From contig NZ_FNAR01000024.1 in NCBI RefSeq assembly GCF_900101985.1, positions 1 through 37,999 on the forward strand: a stretch of 37,999 nucleotides of DNA, in the 5' to 3' direction. Shown piece by piece: positions 24,278 through 33,250 of this stretch. The notes beneath the pieces were generated by a model. That model did no database searches. It was not told where the DNA came from and saw only the letters and a list, made by a program, of their open reading frames with translations. A program made the translations under genes and the position numbers. The stretch's first letter is position 1, and every line of letters starts with the position of its first letter. This DNA comes from Bhargavaea beijingensis (GTDB lineage: Bacteria; Bacillota; Bacilli; Bacillales_A; Planococcaceae).

Positions 24278-25471
24278 ATGGAAAAGAAGGAAAGAGGGCG
24301 GTATGGCGAAATTTTGTCGGCGTCGCTCAAGTTGGGCATGACGTCGTTCGGGGGGCCTGCCGCCCATCTCGGTTATTTCAGGGATGAATATGTGAAAAAG
24401 CGACAGTGGCTTGATGACCGGGCATACGCAGACCTGGTGGCCCTGTGCCAGTTTCTTCCGGGTCCTGCGAGTTCTCAGGTCGGCATCGGAGTCGGCCTGA
24501 TCCGAGGCGGCATAGGAGGCGCGATGCTGTCCTGGTTCGGTTTCACGATGCCGTCCGTCATCATTCTCATGCTGTTTGCATATCTTGTTGCTGGTGATGT
24601 GCCATTTGATACCGGCTGGATCCGCGGCCTCAAAATTGTCGCGGTCGCAATCATTCTTCACGCATTGATCGGCATGGGGAAAAACCTGACTCCTGATGCA
24701 CCAAGAATTGCGCTTGCAGTTTTGGCGGGAGCGGGCGTGTTACTTGTGCCGACTGCCTGGGGCCAGATCGGCGTCATCGTCCTTGCCGGGCTCGTCGGTT
24801 ATATCTTATACAGGAACAGGCAGGCCGGGAACGGCGGGGACGATGCAACGATTCCGATGCCGATCGGGAAAAAAGCGGGTGCCCTGGCTTGGGTGCTGTT
24901 CTTCGGGCTGCTTGCGCTGCTGCCGGTGGTCCGCCAGGCAGCGGATCATATCCTCGTCTCGATCACCGATAGTTTCTACCGGGTCGGTTCGATCGTTTTC
25001 GGCGGCGGCCACGTCGTCCTGCCGATGCTGGAGCGGGAAGTGGTGCCGCAAGGTTACATGGATGCGGAAACCTTTATTGCGGGCTATGGCGCCGCACAGG
25101 CAGTGCCGGGTCCCCTGTTTACGCTGTCCGCATACATCGGCATGATCATGGACAATGTACCGGGAGCGCTTGTCGCGGTTGTCGCGATGTTCCTGCCGTC
25201 GTTCCTCCTCGTGGTCGGAACGCTTCCGTTCTGGTCGGTTCTCCGCAAGAAAACCTGGCTGAGGGCGGCACTGACCGGCGTCAATGCCGCAGTTGTGGGG
25301 ATTCTCGCGGCGGCCTTGATCAACCCGGTCATCCCGAGCTCGATCTTCTCGGTTTGGGACGTCGCGGTTGCGGCGCTTTGTTTTTGGCTGCTCCAGTTCA
25401 GGAAAACACCGCCATGGGGCGTCGTGGCGGTCGCGGGTGTGCTCGGCGCCTTGCTCCATGCATTTCTTTGA
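24278..25471 (+). CDS. chrA: Chromate transporter ChrA (long-chain CHR family)
   Basis: 397 residues, two homologous CHR halves with about 10-12 membrane segments, the usual length of bidomain ChrA. Seen in the first half: GGPAAHLGYFRDEYV (25-39) and QFLPGPASSQ (58-67); in the second half: FGGGHVVLPMLEREVV and GYGAAQAVPGPLFT, the paired motifs of both halves. It exports chromate, or possibly other oxyanions, by a proton-linked mechanism. Ribosome binding site GGAGGAG. No ChrB/ChrI regulator is adjacent. Confidence 0.93.
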   Translation: MEKKERGRYGEILSASLKLGMTSFGGPAAHLGYFRDEYVKKRQWLDDRAYADLVALCQFLPGPASSQVGIGVGLIRGGIGGAMLSWFGFTMPSVIILMLFAYLVAGDVPFDTGWIRGLKIVAVAIILHALIGMGKNLTPDAPRIALAVLAGAGVLLVPTAWGQIGVIVLAGLVGYILYRNRQAGNGGDDATIPMPIGKKAGALAWVLFFGLLALLPVVRQAADHILVSITDSFYRVGSIVFGGGHVVLPMLEREVVPQGYMDAETFIAGYGAAQAVPGPLFTLSAYIGMIMDNVPGALVAVVAMFLPSFLLVVGTLPFWSVLRKKTWLRAALTGVNAAVVGILAAALINPVIPSSIFSVWDVAVAALCFWLLQFRKTPPWGVVAVAGVLGALLHAFL

Positions 25472-25566: not shown

Positions 25567-25596
25567 TTGACACAGGCTGATCCTCAAGGGTAGTCT
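25567..25596 (+). promoter_or_regulatory. Promoter of the exporter operon leader
   Basis: Consensus TTGACA at 25567-25572, then N18 and a weak TAGTCT. Transcription would start about 30 bases before the leader peptide. Confidence 0.6.
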
Positions 25597-25635
25597 GTTA
25601 AGGCAAACAAACTTACGGAAAGGGAGGTGTGGACG

Positions 25636-25710
25636 ATGCACAACATGATCATTCCAATCGGACTCGACAACAGCTGCATATCGCCATGCCTCCCCGGACT
25701 GAGGCCGTAA
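25636..25710 (+). CDS. Leader peptide of the BmrCD-like operon
   Basis: 24 codons beginning MHNMIIPIGL and ending CLPGLRP. The ribosome binding site AGGGAGGTG, eight bases before the ATG, is among the best in the window. No resemblance to a folded protein. The last third of the frame (25684-25699) nearly repeats the loop and descending arm of the terminator 26 bases downstream, so its RNA can pair with the ascending arm. That is the expected design of a ribosome-mediated attenuator, and B. subtilis bmrCD is preceded by the leader peptide BmrB acting this way. The peptide is seen; the mechanism is inferred by analogy. Confidence 0.72.
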   Translation: MHNMIIPIGLDNSCISPCLPGLRP

Positions 25711-25735
25711 TCACACGGCACCAGTGTCTTTTCAG

Positions 25736-25764
25736 GGGTCCGGCATGCCTGCCGGACCCTTTTT
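25736..25764 (+). terminator. Attenuator terminator T1
   Basis: Ten-base perfect stem GGGTCCGGCA/TGCCGGACCC with loop TGCC and T5. It lies inside the leader, ~190 bases before the first exporter gene, so it should stop most transcripts unless the antiterminator forms (25694-25699 CCGGAC with 25738-25743 GTCCGG, and 25685-25688 CATG with 25744-25747 CATG). Confidence 0.9.
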
Positions 25765-25771
25765 CATTGAG

Positions 25772-25800
25772 CGCGCCTCCATGACCGGGGGCGCGTTTTT
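25772..25800 (+). terminator. Second leader terminator T2
   Basis: Stem CGCGCC (25772-25777) / GGCGCG (25790-25795), followed by T5. Its downstream arm is shared with T3. Confidence 0.7.
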
Positions 25801-25810
25801 GCGCCTTTTT
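25790..25810 (+). terminator. Third leader terminator T3, overlapping T2
   Basis: Stem GGCGC (25790-25794) / GCGCC (25801-25805) and T5 (25806-25810). T2 and T3 cannot form together. A further hairpin CGCGC-ATTT-GCGCG follows at 25821-25834. Confidence 0.6.
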
Positions 25811-25872
25811 CGGGTATCACCGCGCATTTGCGCGCTGAATACAAAAGCAAAAAAACGGAAGGAGAAATGGTG

Positions 25873-25929
25873 ATGTGCATTACAAAAGAACGCAAGATCC
25901 TCGTCAAGGAATCAAAAGAAGGCGGGTAG
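25873..25929 (+). CDS. Second mini-ORF before the exporter genes
   Basis: 18 codons, MCITKERKILVKESKEGG, after GGAAGGAG at eight bases; an ATG two codons upstream is too close to the site. Its stop codon lies in the loop of a hairpin (GGCGGG 25921-25926 / CCCGCC 25932-25937) just before the ribosome binding site of the first exporter gene, 28 bases from its ATG. It could couple translation to the exporter or act as a second sensing peptide. Existence is supported by the site and position only. Confidence 0.5.
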   Translation: MCITKERKILVKESKEGG

Positions 25930-25957
25930 TTCCCGCCAGGGAGAGAAGGGATAACCA

Positions 25958-27706
25958 ATGTTCTCAGTCTTGTTTAAACTGAACTGGTTCTTCAAGGAGA
26001 ACTGGAAGCGGTATACGTTGGCGCTGATATTACTTACGTTCACCAACATCCTCGTCGTTGTTCCGCCGTGGCTGATCGGCCGGGCGATCGACACGATGTA
26101 CCGCGGCGATATGACGGAAGGGCTGCTCATGGCCTTTGTCGGCGTGATGGTCCTCCTCATGGCAGTCAATTACGCATCGAACTTTATCTGGCAGTACCAG
26201 CTGTTCGGCGGGGCGAATGTGATCGAGCGTGTTCTCAGGAGCCGGCTCATGCGGCATTTCCTGAAGATGACACCGACATTCTACGAAAAAAACCGGACGG
26301 GCGACCTGATGGCGCGCTCGACAAACGACCTGCGCGCAATTTCCGAAACAGCCGGATTCGGCATCATGACACTGATCGACTCGACGCTCTACCTGGCGAC
26401 GATCTTGCTGACGGCCGGCTTCCTCGTTTCATGGAAGCTGACACTGGCCGCCATCCTGCCGCTGCCGATCCTGGCGGTCATCATGCAGGTGCTCGGCAAG
26501 AAAATCCACGAGCGATACGTCGTGGCACAGGACGCCTTCGGTGAACTCAATGATGACGTGCTTGAGGCGGTTGCCGGTGTCCGCGTTGTCCGGGCCTATG
26601 TCCAAGAGCGCGCCACGGAAGAGAAGTTCAGAAAGAAAACGGAAGAGGTCTATGAGAAAAATATGGCGGTCGAGCGGATCGATGCGCTGTTCGCGCCGAC
26701 ATCAAAAGTGCTCACCGCGGCCAGCTACGCAATCGGCCTCGGCTACGGTGCCTTCCTTGTCTCGACCGGCGAGATGACGCTCGGCAACCTCGTCACATTT
26801 AACGTCTATCTCGGGATGGCCGTCTGGCCGATGATCGCGATCGGCGAGCTGATCAACGTCATGCAGCGGGGGAACGCCTCCCTCGACCGGGTCCACGAGA
26901 CGCTGTCCTATCTGGAAGACGTGCGGGATCCGGACCAGCCGAAACGGGCCGGACAGCCGGATGACGTCACGTTCGATGACGTGACATTCCGCTACCCGCA
27001 ATCGTCGTCGGTCAACTTGGACCGGGTCAAAGTGCGCCTCGAGCGCGGCGGGACGCTCGGCATCGTCGGAAAAACGGGCAGCGGCAAGACGACCTTCATC
27101 CGCCAGCTGCTCCGGGAATATCCGGCAGGTGACGGGGAACTCCGTTTTTCCGGTGTCTCTGTCAGTGATCTGACAAAAGACGAAGTGCGGGACTGGATCG
27201 GCTATGTGCCGCAGGACCATGTGTTGTTCTCGCGGTCGATCCGCGACAACATCCTGTTCGGCAAGCCGGACGCGACCGATGCGGAAATCGACGAAGCGAT
27301 CCGCCTGTCACATTTCCGCAAGGACCTCGCGATGCTGCCGCAGGGACTTGAAACGCTCGTCGGCGAAAAGGGAGTCGCGCTTTCCGGAGGCCAGAAGCAG
27401 CGGATCTCGATTGCCCGTGCACTGATCAAGGACCCGGACATCCTGATCCTTGATGATTCGCTGTCTGCGGTCGACGCCAAGACCGAGACGGCGATCATCG
27501 AAAACATCCGGCAGGGCCGGGAAGGCAAGACGACGATCATCACGACACACCGGCTGTCGGCGATCGAGCATGCCGACTGGATCATCGTCCTCGAAGACGG
27601 CAAAGTCACCGAGGAAGGGACGCATGGGTCCTTGATCGAAGCGGGCGGCTGGTACCGCGAACAATTCGACCGGCAGCAGATCGGGGAGGTGGAGCACCAT
27701 GAATAA
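25958..27706 (+). CDS. Heterodimeric ABC exporter subunit, BmrC-like (degenerate site)
   Basis: 582 residues (B. subtilis BmrC/YheI has 585): six-helix membrane domain (~1-310), then an ATPase domain. Seen: Walker A GKTGSGKT, Q-loop VPQDHVLF, signature LSGGQKQR, Walker B ILILDD and switch THRL. The residue that should be the catalytic Glu is D500 (DD instead of DE), the same substitution and number known for BmrC, so this subunit contributes the degenerate nucleotide site. It forms a multidrug exporter with the next gene, which overlaps it by eight bases. Ribosome binding site GAAGGG. Expression is expected to depend on the leader at 25567-25957. Confidence 0.92.
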   Translation: MFSVLFKLNWFFKENWKRYTLALILLTFTNILVVVPPWLIGRAIDTMYRGDMTEGLLMAFVGVMVLLMAVNYASNFIWQYQLFGGANVIERVLRSRLMRHFLKMTPTFYEKNRTGDLMARSTNDLRAISETAGFGIMTLIDSTLYLATILLTAGFLVSWKLTLAAILPLPILAVIMQVLGKKIHERYVVAQDAFGELNDDVLEAVAGVRVVRAYVQERATEEKFRKKTEEVYEKNMAVERIDALFAPTSKVLTAASYAIGLGYGAFLVSTGEMTLGNLVTFNVYLGMAVWPMIAIGELINVMQRGNASLDRVHETLSYLEDVRDPDQPKRAGQPDDVTFDDVTFRYPQSSSVNLDRVKVRLERGGTLGIVGKTGSGKTTFIRQLLREYPAGDGELRFSGVSVSDLTKDEVRDWIGYVPQDHVLFSRSIRDNILFGKPDATDAEIDEAIRLSHFRKDLAMLPQGLETLVGEKGVALSGGQKQRISIARALIKDPDILILDDSLSAVDAKTETAIIENIRQGREGKTTIITTHRLSAIEHADWIIVLEDGKVTEEGTHGSLIEAGGWYREQFDRQQIGEVEHHE

Positions 27707-29456
27707 GGGGAAACGGCTGGTCCGCTACGCGACGGATCAGAAACGATACGTCATTCCCGGCGTGATCTGCCTGGCGCTTGCCGTAGCGGCTGACCTCGCC
27801 GGGCCGCTGATCGCGAAGCGGATTATCGATGACCATATCGCGGGCAGTGAAGGAGGCGGGATGGAATTCGCCCCGATCCTGATGCTGCTTGCGGTCTTTA
27901 TGGGCCTGGCGGTGGTCACGGCGGTGTTCCGCTACGCGGAATACCTGCTCCTCCAGAAAGGCGCGAACCGCATCATCCAGAAGATGCGGAACGAAGTGTA
28001 CGGCAAGATCCAGACGCTTCCGGTCCGCTACTTCGACAACCTGCCGGCGGGCAAGGTGGTCGCACGCATCACCAATGACACGGAAGCGATCCGCGACATG
28101 TATGTCACGGTACTGTCCCAGTTTGCGACAAGCGGCATGTACATGATCGGGATCTTTGCTGCGCTGCTTTATCTCGAACCGGCGATGGGCGCGATCACGC
28201 TACTGCTCATCCCGGTGCTTTACATCTGGATGCTCTCCTACCGGAAGTACGCCTCCAAGTACAACCGGATCATCCGCGGGAAAGTCAGTGACCTGAATGC
28301 GATGATCAACGAAGCCATCCAGGGCATGACGATCATCCAGGCGTTCCGCCGGGAAAAGCAGATGGAACAGGAATTCAATGAACTGAACGACGAACACTTC
28401 AAGTACAACAACAAGCTGCTGTTTCTCGATTCGGCGACGTCGTTCAACCTGGTCGACGTCCTCCGGTCGATGACGTTCATCGCGTTCATCCTGTACTTCG
28501 GCAATGTGGCGCTTTCCGCGCCGGCCGCGATCTCTGTCGGGGCGCTGTACGCCTTCGTCGACTACATCACGCGCCTCTTCAACCCGATCACGGGCATCGT
28601 CAACCAGTTTTCCCGCCTCGAGCACTCGCTCGTCGCGGCGGAGCGGGTGTTCGAGCTGCTCGATCAGGAAGGTGAGGACGTGAGCGACGAGAAGATCGCG
28701 CGCTACCGCGGGAACGTCCGGTTCGAGAACGTCTGGTTTGCCTACAAGGACGAGGAGTATGTCCTGAAAGGCATCGACTTCGAGGCGAAACAAGGCGAGA
28801 CGGTGGCACTCGTCGGCCACACCGGATCCGGCAAAAGTTCGATCATGAACCTGCTGTTCCGGTTCTATGACCCGTCCGAAGGCCGGATCGTCATCGACGG
28901 GACCGACATCACCAAACTGTCCCGCCAGACGGTGCGCGACCATATGGGCATCGTCCTGCAGGATCCGTACCTGTTCACCGGGACGATTCTGTCAAACATC
29001 AGCTTGGACGATCCGCGGATCTCCCGCGAAGACGTGGAGCGCGCCCTTGAGGCAGTCGGCGGCGACCGTGTGCTGAAAAACCTTCCGGGCGGCATCGACG
29101 CACCGGTCGTGGAAAAGGGCGTCACCCTGTCTGCCGGCCAGCGGCAGCTCGTCTCATTCGCCCGCGCGCTCGCGTTCGACCCGGCGATCCTGATCCTGGA
29201 TGAAGCGACGTCGAACATCGACACCGAAACGGAAGAAATCATCCAGCATGCCATGGACGTCCTGAAAAAAGGACGTACCACCTTCGTCATCGCCCACCGG
29301 CTCTCGACGATCAAAAATGCCGACCGCATCCTCGTCCTCGACAAAGGCGAGATCGTCGAATCCGGCAGCCATGACCAACTGCTTGCGTACGGCGGTCAGT
29401 ATGCCCAGATGTATAAGCTGCAGGCGGGAACGCAGGCAACGGGGAAGATCGGTTGA
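27699..29456 (+). CDS. Heterodimeric ABC exporter subunit, BmrD-like
   Basis: 585 residues: six-helix membrane domain and ATPase domain with Walker A GHTGSGKS, Q-loop LQDPYLF, signature LSAGQRQL, Walker B ILILDE with catalytic E502, and AHRL switch. It supplies the competent Walker B of the consensus site, matched by the canonical LSGGQ of the partner, while its own LSAGQ faces the partner's D500: a proper asymmetric pair. B. subtilis BmrD has 673 residues, so this one lacks an extra segment of ~90; it may belong to a related pair rather than strict BmrD. The ATG overlaps the previous stop and follows GGGGAGGT. A terminator lies 26 bases after the stop. Confidence 0.92.
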   Translation: MNKGKRLVRYATDQKRYVIPGVICLALAVAADLAGPLIAKRIIDDHIAGSEGGGMEFAPILMLLAVFMGLAVVTAVFRYAEYLLLQKGANRIIQKMRNEVYGKIQTLPVRYFDNLPAGKVVARITNDTEAIRDMYVTVLSQFATSGMYMIGIFAALLYLEPAMGAITLLLIPVLYIWMLSYRKYASKYNRIIRGKVSDLNAMINEAIQGMTIIQAFRREKQMEQEFNELNDEHFKYNNKLLFLDSATSFNLVDVLRSMTFIAFILYFGNVALSAPAAISVGALYAFVDYITRLFNPITGIVNQFSRLEHSLVAAERVFELLDQEGEDVSDEKIARYRGNVRFENVWFAYKDEEYVLKGIDFEAKQGETVALVGHTGSGKSSIMNLLFRFYDPSEGRIVIDGTDITKLSRQTVRDHMGIVLQDPYLFTGTILSNISLDDPRISREDVERALEAVGGDRVLKNLPGGIDAPVVEKGVTLSAGQRQLVSFARALAFDPAILILDEATSNIDTETEEIIQHAMDVLKKGRTTFVIAHRLSTIKNADRILVLDKGEIVESGSHDQLLAYGGQYAQMYKLQAGTQATGKIG

Positions 29457-29780: not shown

Positions 29781-30173
29781 ATGACAATTAATCGAAAAGT
29801 AGCAACTAGCCTGCTTTCATTAGGGCTATTCTCTATCGGAACAGGAATTGCTACTGCCGCCACGTATTATGACTACGATGCAAGAGTCCCGGCTATTGCT
29901 GATTTTGAAACTACTAACAAAACTAAGCAAACGACTGGTTCGGCCTATAATAATGTAACTTATCTTGCGAAGGGTGCATCTTTGGTATCATGGGTTGAAA
30001 ATACAAGTGGTACCAACATTACAAGCAAGGTGACATACTCTTCTACAGGAAAAAAGACAATGGATTATAAAGCGGCAAGTACCTATAAAGGAAAATCAGT
30101 GCATTTAAACATTTCCACGCCGTTTGGTGAGAATGAAGCTGTTTCAACGAAAGGAAATTGGACACCAAACTGA
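29781..30173 (+). CDS. Secreted small protein of the AT-rich island
   Basis: 130 residues. Signal peptide MTINRKVATSLLSLGLF...ATA with likely cleavage near residue 26, then a ~100-residue mature part rich in Thr, Ser, Asn, Lys and Tyr, without cysteine, ending GNWTPN. The mature region looks like an all-beta fold. It resembles DUF2712-type or lactococcin-972-like small secreted proteins, which are often next to ABC transporter genes, but I cannot assign it firmly. Ribosome binding site GAAGGAGAG. It is flanked by the 16-bp inverted repeat and is first in an operon with three membrane proteins and an ATPase, suggesting it is exported, sensed or countered by that transporter. Confidence 0.82.
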   Translation: MTINRKVATSLLSLGLFSIGTGIATAATYYDYDARVPAIADFETTNKTKQTTGSAYNNVTYLAKGASLVSWVENTSGTNITSKVTYSSTGKKTMDYKAASTYKGKSVHLNISTPFGENEAVSTKGNWTPN

Positions 30174-30196
30174 TAAGCCTTGACTAGTCAAATGGT

Positions 30197-30212
30197 AATC
30201 TACCCGATTATT
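30197..30212 (-). repeat. Right arm of 16-bp inverted repeat
   Basis: AATCTACCCGATTATT, exact reverse complement of 29739-29754, lying between the secreted-protein gene and the first permease start. A 12-base palindrome TTGACTAGTCAA is at 30180-30191. Confidence 0.85.
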
Positions 30213-30236
30213 TCATTTTTCTTAGGCGGTGATTTA

Positions 30237-31010
30237 TTGTCATACATTTTCGAAGAGCTGAAGAGGGCATTTTGGTCTCCGGCTATGTTGATTGCATCAT
30301 TATTATCCATTTTCATGTTTATCGGGGGATTCATTGAATATATCAGCTGGCTGCCAAGTGGTCAGTTATCATTACTTTATCTATTTCTATCCGGATACAA
30401 TTCAGGAACCGCCAATACACTTGCTCTTGCTTTCCCTATTTTGGCCTGTCTTCCTTTTGTCGCGAGCTATGTGCAGGATGAAAATAACCATCTGACGAAT
30501 TATATATCTATCCGCACTTCTGAGCGGACATATAAAACGATAAAATTCTTCATAACTGGTTTAACGGGCGGAGTCGCGGTGGCGATTGGACCGGTGGTTG
30601 GTTTTATGATTCTTTCTGTTTTAAGCTTCGTTTTTCAACTTCCTTTGGAAGGTGAGGGCCTGGAAACAGCTGAAATGTTCCATTCCATGGGTATTGCTTC
30701 CCCGCATCTCATGATCCTTTTGATCATCCTTACGATTTTTGGCTGCGGATTCACACTGGCATCATTTGGGCTTGGGTTATCTGTTTTTGTGAAAAACACT
30801 TATTTGGCAGTCTTGATGCCTTTCGTTTTTTATCTCATAACCAGTACAGTTTTTATTGACATTAACCCTCTATTAAATGCACAAATTTTATACGATATTA
30901 ATAAAACAGGTATGGGAAGTTGGCCGAGAGTTGCTTATGCCGCAATCCTGATCATTATCGGGGCAGTAAGTTTTTTTGGCGGTGGGAGAAAAATTGAATA
31001 TACGAGATAA
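30237..31010 (+). CDS. ABC-2-like permease 1 of the island
   Basis: About 257 residues and six hydrophobic helices. Start chosen at TTG 30237 (LSYIFEELKRAFWSP...), five bases after GGCGGTG. A TTG at 30180 is in frame but has no site and lies in the palindrome. The N-terminal amphipathic ELKRAFWSPAMLI followed by a hydrophobic helix is typical of ABC-2 permeases. Other landmarks: YVQDENNHLTNYISIR after helix 2, a cytoplasmic loop-like segment of such permeases. Exact family not recognised (DUF2705-like is possible). It overlaps the next gene by 17 bases. Confidence 0.78.
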   Translation: MSYIFEELKRAFWSPAMLIASLLSIFMFIGGFIEYISWLPSGQLSLLYLFLSGYNSGTANTLALAFPILACLPFVASYVQDENNHLTNYISIRTSERTYKTIKFFITGLTGGVAVAIGPVVGFMILSVLSFVFQLPLEGEGLETAEMFHSMGIASPHLMILLIILTIFGCGFTLASFGLGLSVFVKNTYLAVLMPFVFYLITSTVFIDINPLLNAQILYDINKTGMGSWPRVAYAAILIIIGAVSFFGGGRKIEYTR

Positions 31011-31803
31011 GATAGAGTTGCTGCGTACGATCGGCATACGGTCTGCACTGGCAGCTTTTGGTCTAATAATCGTCTTTACATCCAATCATTTATTTGATGT
31101 GTTGGAACTGTCCAAAAATGTGAATGGTTACGATCACTTCTTACAAGTATTTGGGTTTTTATCGATCTCGTACTCGATTGTACCCATATTTTTAATGGTA
31201 TTGTTAGTTTACTTTTCGAAAATGCAGATAAGACCCTATATTAGTTTACGCTATGGAAGCACGACAGCATGGGTTTCATCTGAAATGATGCTGATCGGAT
31301 TGCTGAGTGTTGCCACTGTGCTGGCGTTCGTTTGTATCTGTTTTTTGCAGTCTTTACTCACCCTTGGCTTTAAAGGTGGTTGGAGCGAACACGCGAAAAA
31401 TTATTATGAGTACTTTGAGGTGTTTTTAAATCTCCATCATCCGGTTCAATACATCATCGTTACGGTCATTTGTACGGCATTCCTTCTTTTTGTGTTAGGT
31501 TTGATTTTTTTCATCTGTTTTCTGAAATTGAGGAACATCATAGCGTCATTGGTAATTGTCGTTCTCTGTTGGATGTTCAATAACTTAGTAACGATAGGGA
31601 AAATCGGAGTGCTTTCTCCCTGGTTGTTTACGGATCATGTAGATCTCTTCACTTACATGTATAGACATAAAATTTCTCAATCATCTTTTCCGTATCAAAT
31701 AATAATCTACTGGTTGATTTTAACTGGGGTGCTCATCGCTATTTGCATTCGCATAGCGAAAACGGAGGACTTGATATTCGGAAAGGAAAACGTTCATGGG
31801 TAA
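30994..31803 (+). CDS. ABC-2-like permease 2 of the island
   Basis: 269 residues from TTG 30994, four bases after GGTGGGAGA; an upstream in-frame TTG at 30976 would put this site inside the gene. About six membrane helices. It shares the layout of its neighbours: a basic N-terminal helix, IRPYISLRYGSTTAWVSSEM after helix 2, then four more helices. No family recognised. It overlaps permease 1 at its start and permease 3 by eight bases at its end, so translation of the whole set is coupled. Confidence 0.78.
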   Translation: MNIRDKIELLRTIGIRSALAAFGLIIVFTSNHLFDVLELSKNVNGYDHFLQVFGFLSISYSIVPIFLMVLLVYFSKMQIRPYISLRYGSTTAWVSSEMMLIGLLSVATVLAFVCICFLQSLLTLGFKGGWSEHAKNYYEYFEVFLNLHHPVQYIIVTVICTAFLLFVLGLIFFICFLKLRNIIASLVIVVLCWMFNNLVTIGKIGVLSPWLFTDHVDLFTYMYRHKISQSSFPYQIIIYWLILTGVLIAICIRIAKTEDLIFGKENVHG

Positions 31804-32593
31804 TTTACTCCGATATCACTATCGTTTATTAATTTGCACTCCAACTCTTTTGGTAGTGCCGGCTGCATTTTTGCTGAATGCTGTGATTGCTGGCATTTCG
31901 AATGATTGGAAACTACCGTACAGCGGTCTGAAGTCCGTTGCTTTTCTGCTCTATTTGCCGACTAACCCGTCGTTTGATTTGGTCCGTTGGTTGCTAATAT
32001 TGACTCCCTATTTATTAATAACGGGCCTGTATCTTCATGATGAATTTACGGGACGTTTCGTTAATGTGTCCATTCAATCCAAGAGGTCAACTTTATGGTT
32101 GGATTCCTTTTTGATCGTAATGACCTTATTTATTACTGTTGGAACAATACTGGGGTTCTGTATTAATATGATGGCCGGATTTTTAATCAATGATGGCGGA
32201 GAAGCGGTTTGGATGGAAGGCTCAATGTTTGAAAAAGTGAATGCAGTCAATTTATTAGTAAGAGAGTTTATTCTAATGAATGGATCTGCAATGATTGCTG
32301 TGCTGACAAATATCTTATTGACACTGCTGTTTAGAAATATGGGCGTAGCCACACTTCTTACTGTGACCAGTATCATTGTCTCATTTGCAGTTGCCCGATT
32401 AGCAACCCCTCTCATCCCTTGGCTGCCAATCAATATGGGGTTGACTGCCTTCAATGAAATTCAGCCTTTTTCTCTTTTCCATGGAACAACAGTGAGTGTT
32501 GCAATGATTGTAATCTTGATCGCATTGATCCGATTAGTATTCCGATATCGGCTGGAAAGTTTATTTATTGAAGGACTTAAGCAGGAAGGGTGA
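31796..32593 (+). CDS. ABC-2-like permease 3 of the island
   Basis: 265 residues, six membrane helices. LLRYHYRLLICTPTLLVVPAAFL at the N-terminus, then YLHDEFTGRFVNVSIQSKRSTLWLDSFLI in the equivalent place to the loop of the other two permeases, which suggests the three are distant paralogues. Start at the ATG after AAAGGA. It ends three bases before the ATPase start codon. Function as export or immunity channel is inferred from the ATPase next door. Confidence 0.78.
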   Translation: MGNLLRYHYRLLICTPTLLVVPAAFLLNAVIAGISNDWKLPYSGLKSVAFLLYLPTNPSFDLVRWLLILTPYLLITGLYLHDEFTGRFVNVSIQSKRSTLWLDSFLIVMTLFITVGTILGFCINMMAGFLINDGGEAVWMEGSMFEKVNAVNLLVREFILMNGSAMIAVLTNILLTLLFRNMGVATLLTVTSIIVSFAVARLATPLIPWLPINMGLTAFNEIQPFSLFHGTTVSVAMIVILIALIRLVFRYRLESLFIEGLKQEG

Positions 32594-32596
32594 AGT

Positions 32597-33250
32597 GTGC
32601 CAATGATCATTGAAATCAATCATGTTACGAAGACTGTAAAGGGCAATGATTTATTGAAAGATATCGACTTGAGGATAACGAAACCGGGAGTCTATGGAGT
32701 GATCGGACGGAACGGCTCGGGGAAAAGCGTTCTATTTAAGACAATTGCAGGTCTGTTGCGACCAACGACGGGAGAAGTGAAAGTTTTCGGCGAGAAAGTA
32801 GGCAATGGCAGGTTCCCTAAACACTTTGGTGCTTTATTTGATCTCCCGGGCTTTGTCCCGCGGTATACTGCTTTTAATAACCTAAAGCTTCTTGCCTCAA
32901 TACGGGGGATAATCAGTACAGAGGATATACGGCAGGTGATCAGCAAAGTTGGATTGGACCCTGATGATCGGCGCCCGGTTAAAAAATATTCTTACGGCAT
33001 GCGACAACGGCTGGGCATAGCGCAGGCCATCATGGAAAATCCAAGCCTTCTGATTTTGGACGAACCCATGAATGGCCTTGATGAAACAGGTGTAGAAGAA
33101 ATTAGGGGAATGATCTTGGAGTTTAAAAAACAAGGCATGACCGTTCTCATTGCCAGTCATAACTCCGAGGATATCAAACTGCTGTGCGATCAAGTTTACC
33201 GAATGGATCAGGGCAAGCTAACACTTCATCAAACTGAGACAGTATCCTAA
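32597..33250 (+). CDS. ABC transporter ATPase of the island
   Basis: 217 residues, one complete ATP-binding domain: Walker A GRNGSGKS (37-44), a Q-loop region shortened to ALFDLPGFVP, signature YSYGMRQRLG (the usual LSGG is replaced, as in many drug and bacteriocin ABC-2 ATPases), Walker B LLILDEPMNGLD, and the switch histidine in ASHNSED. A GTG start at 32597, six bases after GGAAGGG, is preferred over the ATG at 32603. It is the only ATPase for three permeases, so it likely energises one complex of mixed permeases. Followed by a terminator. Confidence 0.9.
   Translation: MPMIIEINHVTKTVKGNDLLKDIDLRITKPGVYGVIGRNGSGKSVLFKTIAGLLRPTTGEVKVFGEKVGNGRFPKHFGALFDLPGFVPRYTAFNNLKLLASIRGIISTEDIRQVISKVGLDPDDRRPVKKYSYGMRQRLGIAQAIMENPSLLILDEPMNGLDETGVEEIRGMILEFKKQGMTVLIASHNSEDIKLLCDQVYRMDQGKLTLHQTETVS

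Follow-up and report, generated by a model that had tools for sequence, protein, structure and literature searches.

A probable ribosome-mediated attenuator with two leader open reading frames ahead of bmrCD in Bhargavaea beijingensis and its relatives

The leader that precedes the bmrCD exporter genes in Bhargavaea beijingensis is read here as a trp-type ribosome-mediated transcription attenuator, with a probability of about 0.85, and through its RNA switch a ribosome slowed by a drug would probably induce the exporter. We observed the anatomy of this leader, its conservation, two competing pairings across relatives, near-neutral change in the first leader peptide (uORF1) and constraint on a second one (uORF2). 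A short leader ORF with a ribosome binding site and an intrinsic terminator between this ORF and the exporter gene were both found.

The window studied is a stretch of 37,999 nucleotides, and the leader and exporter features given below all lie on its + strand. A putative promoter is composed of TTGACA (25567-25572), an 18-nt spacer and a weak -10 element, TAGTCT (25591-25596). The first-pass annotation had named the TTGACA promoter; TTGACA, the 18-nt spacer and TAG(T/G)CT are retained in 8 of 8 Bhargavaea and Edaphobacillus rows, window included, but a promoter consensus scan called none and no consensus -10 was found. uORF1 has 24 codons (MHNMIIPIGLDNSCISPCLPGLRP, 25636-25710) and the Shine-Dalgarno sequence (SD) GGGAGGT at 25622-25628. 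Segment 1, which comprises this SD and the start codon (25622-25640), is the 5′ strand of the 1:2 hairpin and pairs with 25675-25678 and 25681-25694. At the 3′ end of uORF1 lies the ORF-end segment CCATGCCTCCCCGGAC (25684-25699). The switch itself, segment 2, was placed by folding, pairing tests and alignment at CAUGCC (25685-25690) and CCCC (25692-25695). Its antiterminator partner, segment 3, is the ascending arm of terminator T1 (25735-25747, with GGGG at 25735-25738 and GGCAUG at 25742-25747). T1 (segments 3:4, 25735-25764) was recovered by the terminator scan, by our own script and in the alignment; it consists of a stem (25735-25760) followed by five U, and its loop and descending arm carry the string GCATGCCTGCCGGACC (25743-25758). 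With the uORF1 stop at 25710 and the start of T1 at 25735, the terminator lies outside the leader ORF, 24 nt past it. A second terminator-like hairpin, T2 (25769-25803; hairpin 25769-25798 of -21.8 kcal/mol, then U), was found by our own script and is absent from the list of the consensus terminator scan. uORF2, of 18 codons (MCITKERKILVKESKEGG, 25873-25929, stop TAG), has the SD AGGAG at 25860-25864 and an internal AAGGA at 25906-25910, and ends 28 nt before bmrC.

The two genes that follow are orthologues of bmrC (yheI, an ABC exporter half-transporter, 25958-27706) and bmrD (yheH, the partner half-transporter, 27699-29456), with YheI (817 bits) and YheH (733 bits) as best PDB matches, in line with the BmrCD-like exporter of the first-pass annotation. 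TTGACA, the 24-codon ORF with its strong SD, the terminator and the exporter genes were all found where that annotation had put them.

For the 176-nt leader the folding energy was -72.7 kcal/mol, compared with -49.4 ± 4.0 in 200 shuffles (z -5.8), and the window scan gave 3 terminator-like sites versus 1.2 ± 1.4 in shuffles. Rfam at gathering score found only tRNAs in the window and no leader family; 13 tRNA matches form a run on the + strand at 1-1245, the first being truncated by the window edge. On the 3′ side of bmrD, four ORFs at 29781-33250 (130, 276, 275 and 265 aa) had no Pfam or NCBIfam match at 1e-3. Next comes a 217-aa ABC ATPase, for which the lantibiotic-protection subfamily is the top NCBIfam model, below cut-off; these ORFs and the ATPase possibly form a peptide-antibiotic immunity transporter.

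BmrC orthologues were collected from 151 family genomes (150 matched), 299 class genomes (133 matched), 44 genomes of the B. subtilis genus (43 matched) and 80 named contigs (best 80 of 257 relatives). Among those best 80, the nearest named genomes with the exporter are Bhargavaea and Edaphobacillus, with BmrC 87-97% identical. We retrieved 30 loci from the family search, 60 hand-picked loci and the best 30 each from the class and genus searches. The family and named-contig loci gave 171 upstream regions, of which 140 were distinct and long enough; with 28 and 26 further regions, the set comprised 194 non-identical upstream regions. In 192 of them an SD-equipped uORF1 is followed by at least one terminator-like hairpin (tandem T1-T2 in 137, a single hairpin in 55), an automatic assignment made without shuffle control and including some wrong hairpins or ORFs (e.g. 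L043, L168, L221 and L222). The leader sequence had no match in plasmids.

In the free leader of the window, the 3′ end of uORF1 is folded onto the SD and start codon of uORF1. This 1:2 pairing of the ORF tail with its own SD is predicted at -30.1 kcal/mol, which 0 of 60 shuffles reached, and across 192 loci it was at p ≤ 0.05 in 66%, with a median shuffle p of 0.017. Nine segment pairs were tested alike against dinucleotide shuffles, at the 137 tandem loci and also with one locus for each of 37 sequence clusters. The tail with the SD was enriched (66% of loci, 62% of clusters), and so was the tail with the T1 ascending arm, the 2:3 pairing (41% of both), while seven control pairings stayed at 1-8% of loci and 0-11% of clusters. 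The controls were the tail with the T2 ascending, T2 descending or T1 descending arm, the T1 descending with the T2 ascending arm, the ORF head with the T1 arm or the SD, and the upstream sequence with the T1 arm (n = 135). Of the nine tested, then, segment 2 favours two pairings that compete with each other. An antiterminator strand that lies in the ORF and excludes the terminator is thus seen across relatives (41% versus 0-11%, 37 clusters), which supports the earlier proposal of a ribosome-mediated attenuator with the ORF 3′ end as this strand, and the 1:2 tests and the alignment described below reveal an anti-antiterminator competing for segment 2. The observation of the first-pass annotation is confirmed and its attenuator interpretation partly supported; it is incomplete in that the 1:2 pairing with the ORF's own SD, T2 and uORF2 are absent from it.

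In the GC-rich window alone, 2:3 showed no excess over its own shuffles (p 0.19 and 0.23 in two tests), so the evidence beyond chance for 2:3 comes from the comparison across relatives. Set against arms swapped in from dissimilar loci, 2:3 ranked below 0.05 at 21% of 132 loci, with a mean z of -0.95 (5 of the 137 tandem loci fell outside the limits).

Through the 8-row alignment of Bhargavaea and Edaphobacillus, 92% of the cells of the 1:2 helix were found paired, with one GC to AU exchange; 2 of its 18 pairs are altered on both sides, which 12 of 500 shuffles reach. Jointly, 1:2 and T1 have 95% of cells paired, and 31-49% when slid by 1-3 columns. For 2:3, two registers fit this alignment equally. 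The one given in the first-pass annotation, CCGGAC with GTCCGG plus CATG with CATG, has 7 of 10 pairs invariant, one pair broken in 6 of 8 rows (6 of 7 close relatives) and 90.0% of cells paired; the register to which the energy model gives preference in the window, CAUGCC with GGCAUG plus CCC with GGG, reaches 90.3% of cells paired, 8 of its 9 pairs being invariant and one pair being broken in 7 of 8 rows. 2:3 is nearly invariant in this close group and therefore has no covariation there. The further claim that the end of the ORF nearly copies the terminator held for 6 of 7 close relatives, where the longest common string is 8 nt (p 0.00-0.04), but in the window it is 6 nt (p 0.15). Exact-repeat mimicry as a general feature was rejected, as only 12% of the 137 loci were at p ≤ 0.05. 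Across 192 loci the start of segment 2 falls at codon 15 (IQR 14.3-16.3), a spread narrowed by restricting the search to the final 45 nt of the ORF.

The upstream neighbour of the leader is the chromate transporter gene chrA, which ends at 25471, 263 nt before T1, and T1 has the look of an ordinary terminator. T1 and T2 could then be plain tandem terminators of chrA and uORF1 a chance ORF. We give this hardly any credence: a ChrA match was found at just 40 loci (several genomes being included twice, and many other loci having too little flank to show absence) against a leader in 192 of 194 regions, the pairing enrichment is specific beside seven flat controls, and the leader is copied elsewhere as one unit.

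The peptide of uORF1 changes almost freely. Its pN/pS was 0.88 (152 pairs) and 0.96 over the last nine codons, equal to the 0.96 of the +1 frame control, as estimated by a simple method on non-independent pairs. Purifying selection on this peptide was thus not seen (0.88 versus 0.96), and its near-neutrality indicates that the ORF is read as RNA. A sequence-specific, drug-dependent arrest peptide like ErmCL, with the RNA merely following, is therefore an improbable description of uORF1. NxI..P.LP-like endings do recur in several genera, but besides the pN/pS values, in B. cecembensis T14 (one assembly) an extra base shifts the 3′ frame of uORF1 while the RNA is kept, frame shifts with the RNA retained also occur within the B. 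subtilis group, the stop codons are mixed (76 TGA, 74 TAA and 42 TAG in 192), and the PCLP codons of the window belong to the SD-pairing strand.

From this anatomy we infer the order of events, the drug response, the passage of T2 and any role of uORF2. If uORF1 carries no ribosome, segment 2 would pair with the SD and start codon (1:2), T1 (3:4) would form and transcription would stop. A ribosome at the end of uORF1 would cover segment 2, so that T1 would again form and the exporter would stay off. A ribosome held by a drug within about the first 8-12 codons would cover segment 1 and leave segment 2 free for 2:3, and the polymerase would pass T1. Any slowing of early elongation would be enough, and the peptide sequence would not be the signal. 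With the ribosome masked, its leading edge assumed at P-site +14 nt and the polymerase at 25748, folding produced 2:3 together with an inner hairpin at each P-site codon examined between 1 and 12 (whole stretch, -29.6 to -31.7 kcal/mol); 2:3 was partial at codon 14 (-19.9) and lost at codon 16. By arithmetic from an assumed 17-nt trailing edge, segment 1 would be covered only for about codons 1-8, and it is from these codon ranges that the off/off/on rule is drawn. With the polymerase at 25764, T1 was the minimum-energy form under all conditions tried; the antiterminator therefore has to prevail kinetically, by forming first. The read-through RNA would carry uORF2, and a second, translation-level step ahead of bmrC is suggested by the conservation of the uORF2 peptide.

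T2-like hairpins (window 25769-25803) recur among relatives. No disabling partner for T2 was found at the 137 loci, where the tail with the T2 ascending arm (7%) and the T1 descending with the T2 ascending arm (8%) showed no enrichment. Control of T2 by the uORF1 switch or by the T1 descending arm was rejected by this test, the pairings being at control level; T2 may be leaky or governed otherwise.

uORF2 lies just 5′ of bmrC and was found in 156 or more of the 194 regions; it has mostly 17-20 codons (up to 34) and ends in [DE]-x-[GDE]-stop. The counts use this C-terminal pattern: 167 of 194 regions have a candidate ORF, 150 fit and 17 do not, and 6 of these 17, the B. subtilis-group EGG-TGA ORFs, were set by hand to give 156. 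The script did not detect uORF2 in 38 of 194 regions, two of which (L068 and L098) do carry it. Among the class loci it was detected in 12 of 28, or 8 of 24 without the four B. subtilis-genus loci (L172-L175). The C-terminus is often K-E-x-L-E/D-x-G-stop, and in 104 of 156 an SD-like AAGGA begins precisely 21 nt 5′ of the stop (other offsets from -60 to +29 have at most 9 each). In the window this SD-like AAGGA of the tiny ORF is at 25906-25910, and it is preserved through codon choice, AAG for Lys. The Lys codon at -7 is AAG in 101 of 110 cases, the corresponding counts being 73 of 363 elsewhere in uORF2 and 146 of 471 in bmrC codons 1-20. For Gly at the last position all four codons are used. 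A stop that is always TAG proved wrong (129 TAG, 17 TGA and 10 TAA in 156). The stop codon of the window lies in the loop of a GGCGGG-TAGTT-CCCGCC hairpin (25921-25937), which, judged by eye, is present in the Bhargavaea rows and uncommon elsewhere.

Could uORF2 be a mere translational coupler or a chance remnant, of no regulatory use? It ends about 15-44 nt 5′ of bmrC across relatives, its script detection fails in the 38 regions mentioned, and its pairing with its own SD or with the bmrC SD is at chance level (0-6%), by which an RNA element pairing with an SD was rejected. We consider this reading rather unlikely, since the peptide is under purifying selection, with a pN/pS, by the same simple method, of 0.45 (1103 likewise non-independent pairs) versus 1.47 out of frame (+1), and such conservation makes coupling alone an insufficient explanation. 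Since the three C-terminal residues served to select the loci, the last-codon values (0.40-0.45) carry a bias; codons 2-9 lie outside this selection and gave 0.49. The fixed offset of AAGGA, the AAG bias at codon -7 and the fact that uORF2 travels together with the leader also argue against it.

This last point comes from second leader cassettes. A degenerate uORF2-end pattern matched in 42 of 151 family genomes, and its reversed control in 0 of the genomes listed. Seven matches are away from bmrC, each after a complete second leader uORF1-T1-T2-uORF2. The second leaders are followed, after a gap of 85-87 nt, by two ORFs, the first of 40 codons (31 in one copy) and the second of ~52-65 codons. 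A protein search with the latter found it in 9 of 151 family genomes, with a second leader including uORF2 in 9 of 9. uORF2 thus moves with the leader and not with the exporter. That uORF2, adjoining bmrC and conserved as a peptide, might be a micropeptide partner of the BmrCD protein is consequently very improbable, as all nine second cassettes contain it, and those copies that were read continue directly into small ORFs and not into an exporter gene. The tail paired with the SD at p 0.007-0.05 in the six copies parsed correctly (in L258 a wrong ATG start was used in the analysis), and with the T1 arm at p 0.14-0.27 in the five tested. Behind the duplicated leader in L258-L264 (e.g. L258 at about 1650-2500), the 40-codon ORF ends in ...VLATP, and the basic ~52-65-codon ORF has its SD inside a TTCTCCTTAAGGAGAA palindrome, an arrangement that looks like a further translational attenuator. 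Pfam and NCBIfam gave nothing near cut-off for these small ORFs; there were two weak NCBIfam matches, the better at E 0.0047 and 16.8 bits against a cut-off of 73.3.

For B. subtilis itself, the available text of Reilman et al. (2014, PMC4191407) reports that bmrCD is induced by ribosome-targeting drugs in dependence on leader translation, and that bmrCD also needs the terminator and a ribosome to which the drug can bind. The published BmrB (yheJ) has 53 codons from GTG, with the terminator within the ORF (PMC4191407). In locus L202, BmrC and the PDB YheI chain are 100% identical over 577 aa. The leader of this locus has a 53-codon GTG ORF, with the size and start codon of the published BmrB, but the strong SD, GGAAGGAGGG, belongs to a 23-codon ORF that starts with ATG in a different frame and encloses the GTG. 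Here the uORF1 SD-tail pairing was -21.9 kcal/mol, a value attained by none of 200 shuffles, and uORF2 ends in KEKIEGG.

We compared 17 loci of the B. subtilis group with the most similar BmrC (80-100%). The SD-ATG ORF (23-32 codons) is present in 17 of 17, and the BmrB-like frame, 52-61 codons long and beginning at a GTG or TTG that lies 10-29 nt inside the SD-ATG ORF, is open in 8 of 17. In all 11 loci tested the tail paired with the SD at p 0-0.015; in 11 loci of the group, the stretch between uORF1 and the terminator paired with the terminator arm at p 0.23-0.63, and the tail paired with that stretch at p 0.025-0.305. As described in PMC4191407, the BmrB start mutant had GTG changed and a stop inserted, with alternative starts or RBSs also altered; recoding of five rare codons in the BmrB frame lowered expression and left the two-fold lincomycin induction intact; and a BmrB-GFP fusion gave a signal on a plasmid and none on the chromosome. 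The mutant and fusion data, as that text presents them, are compatible with either frame. Judged by the reading frames, the annotated BmrB (yheJ) is possibly a mis-framed leader annotation, and regulation in B. subtilis may depend on a frame other than the one studied there. The uORF1 peptide of the window gave no local alignment with the annotated BmrB at E up to 100. The BmrB-type control named in the first-pass annotation is accordingly retained in part: bmrCD orthologues follow the leader, but peptide homology to BmrB, whose own frame is doubtful, and a terminator inside the ORF were not found.

We tentatively propose, as an idea with the odds somewhat against it, a portable two-stage device, in which the RNA-read uORF1 would decide transcription, and the peptide-read uORF2 would hold the terminating ribosome and so determine how well the read-through message is translated or how stable it is. 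In that case uORF2 would represent a new class of very short, termination-linked regulatory peptides, and BmrB a mis-framed annotation; among the matches listed from the open PMC literature, none reported uORF2 or a mis-framed BmrB. Studies of bmrCD expression should consider this peptide-conserved uORF2. The one-species model of drug-inducible efflux (bmrBCD) becomes a comparative rule, the RNA switch being kept while the leader peptide drifts, and this would explain how one sensor answers different ribosome drugs. The class of mechanism is already known, and new here are the SD-hiding arm, the two ORFs with opposite constraint and the portable cassette.

The E. coli trp attenuator, also described in PMC4191407, has four segments that pair as 1:2, 2:3 and 3:4, with the ribosome position as the switch. 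The Bhargavaea leader follows the same four-segment logic. Unlike in E. coli trp, there are no evident amino-acid control codons here, and segment 1 is the SD itself.

The vmlR leader of B. subtilis has a uORF with an anti-antiterminator, an antiterminator and a terminator, and some sequence variants of this uORF work (PMC9226507). Both leaders share the uORF inside the anti-antiterminator, the antiterminator, the intrinsic terminator and a dependence on initiation or an early stall (PMC9226507), the last being our reading for Bhargavaea. As far as the available text of PMC9226507 describes it, vmlR has of its own a 3-codon uORF, a single-stranded SD, an SD-hiding hairpin before vmlR and an ABC-F gene, whereas in Bhargavaea the anti-antiterminator hides the SD of the uORF itself and a peptide-constrained second ORF precedes the gene. 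The closest system is bmrB-bmrCD of B. subtilis, which has in common with the present leader the orthologous exporter, a ribosome-read leader, a terminator, an antiterminator and an anti-antiterminator (compare PMC4191407). It differs in that here T1 is located 24 nt past the 24-codon ORF and a second hairpin follows.
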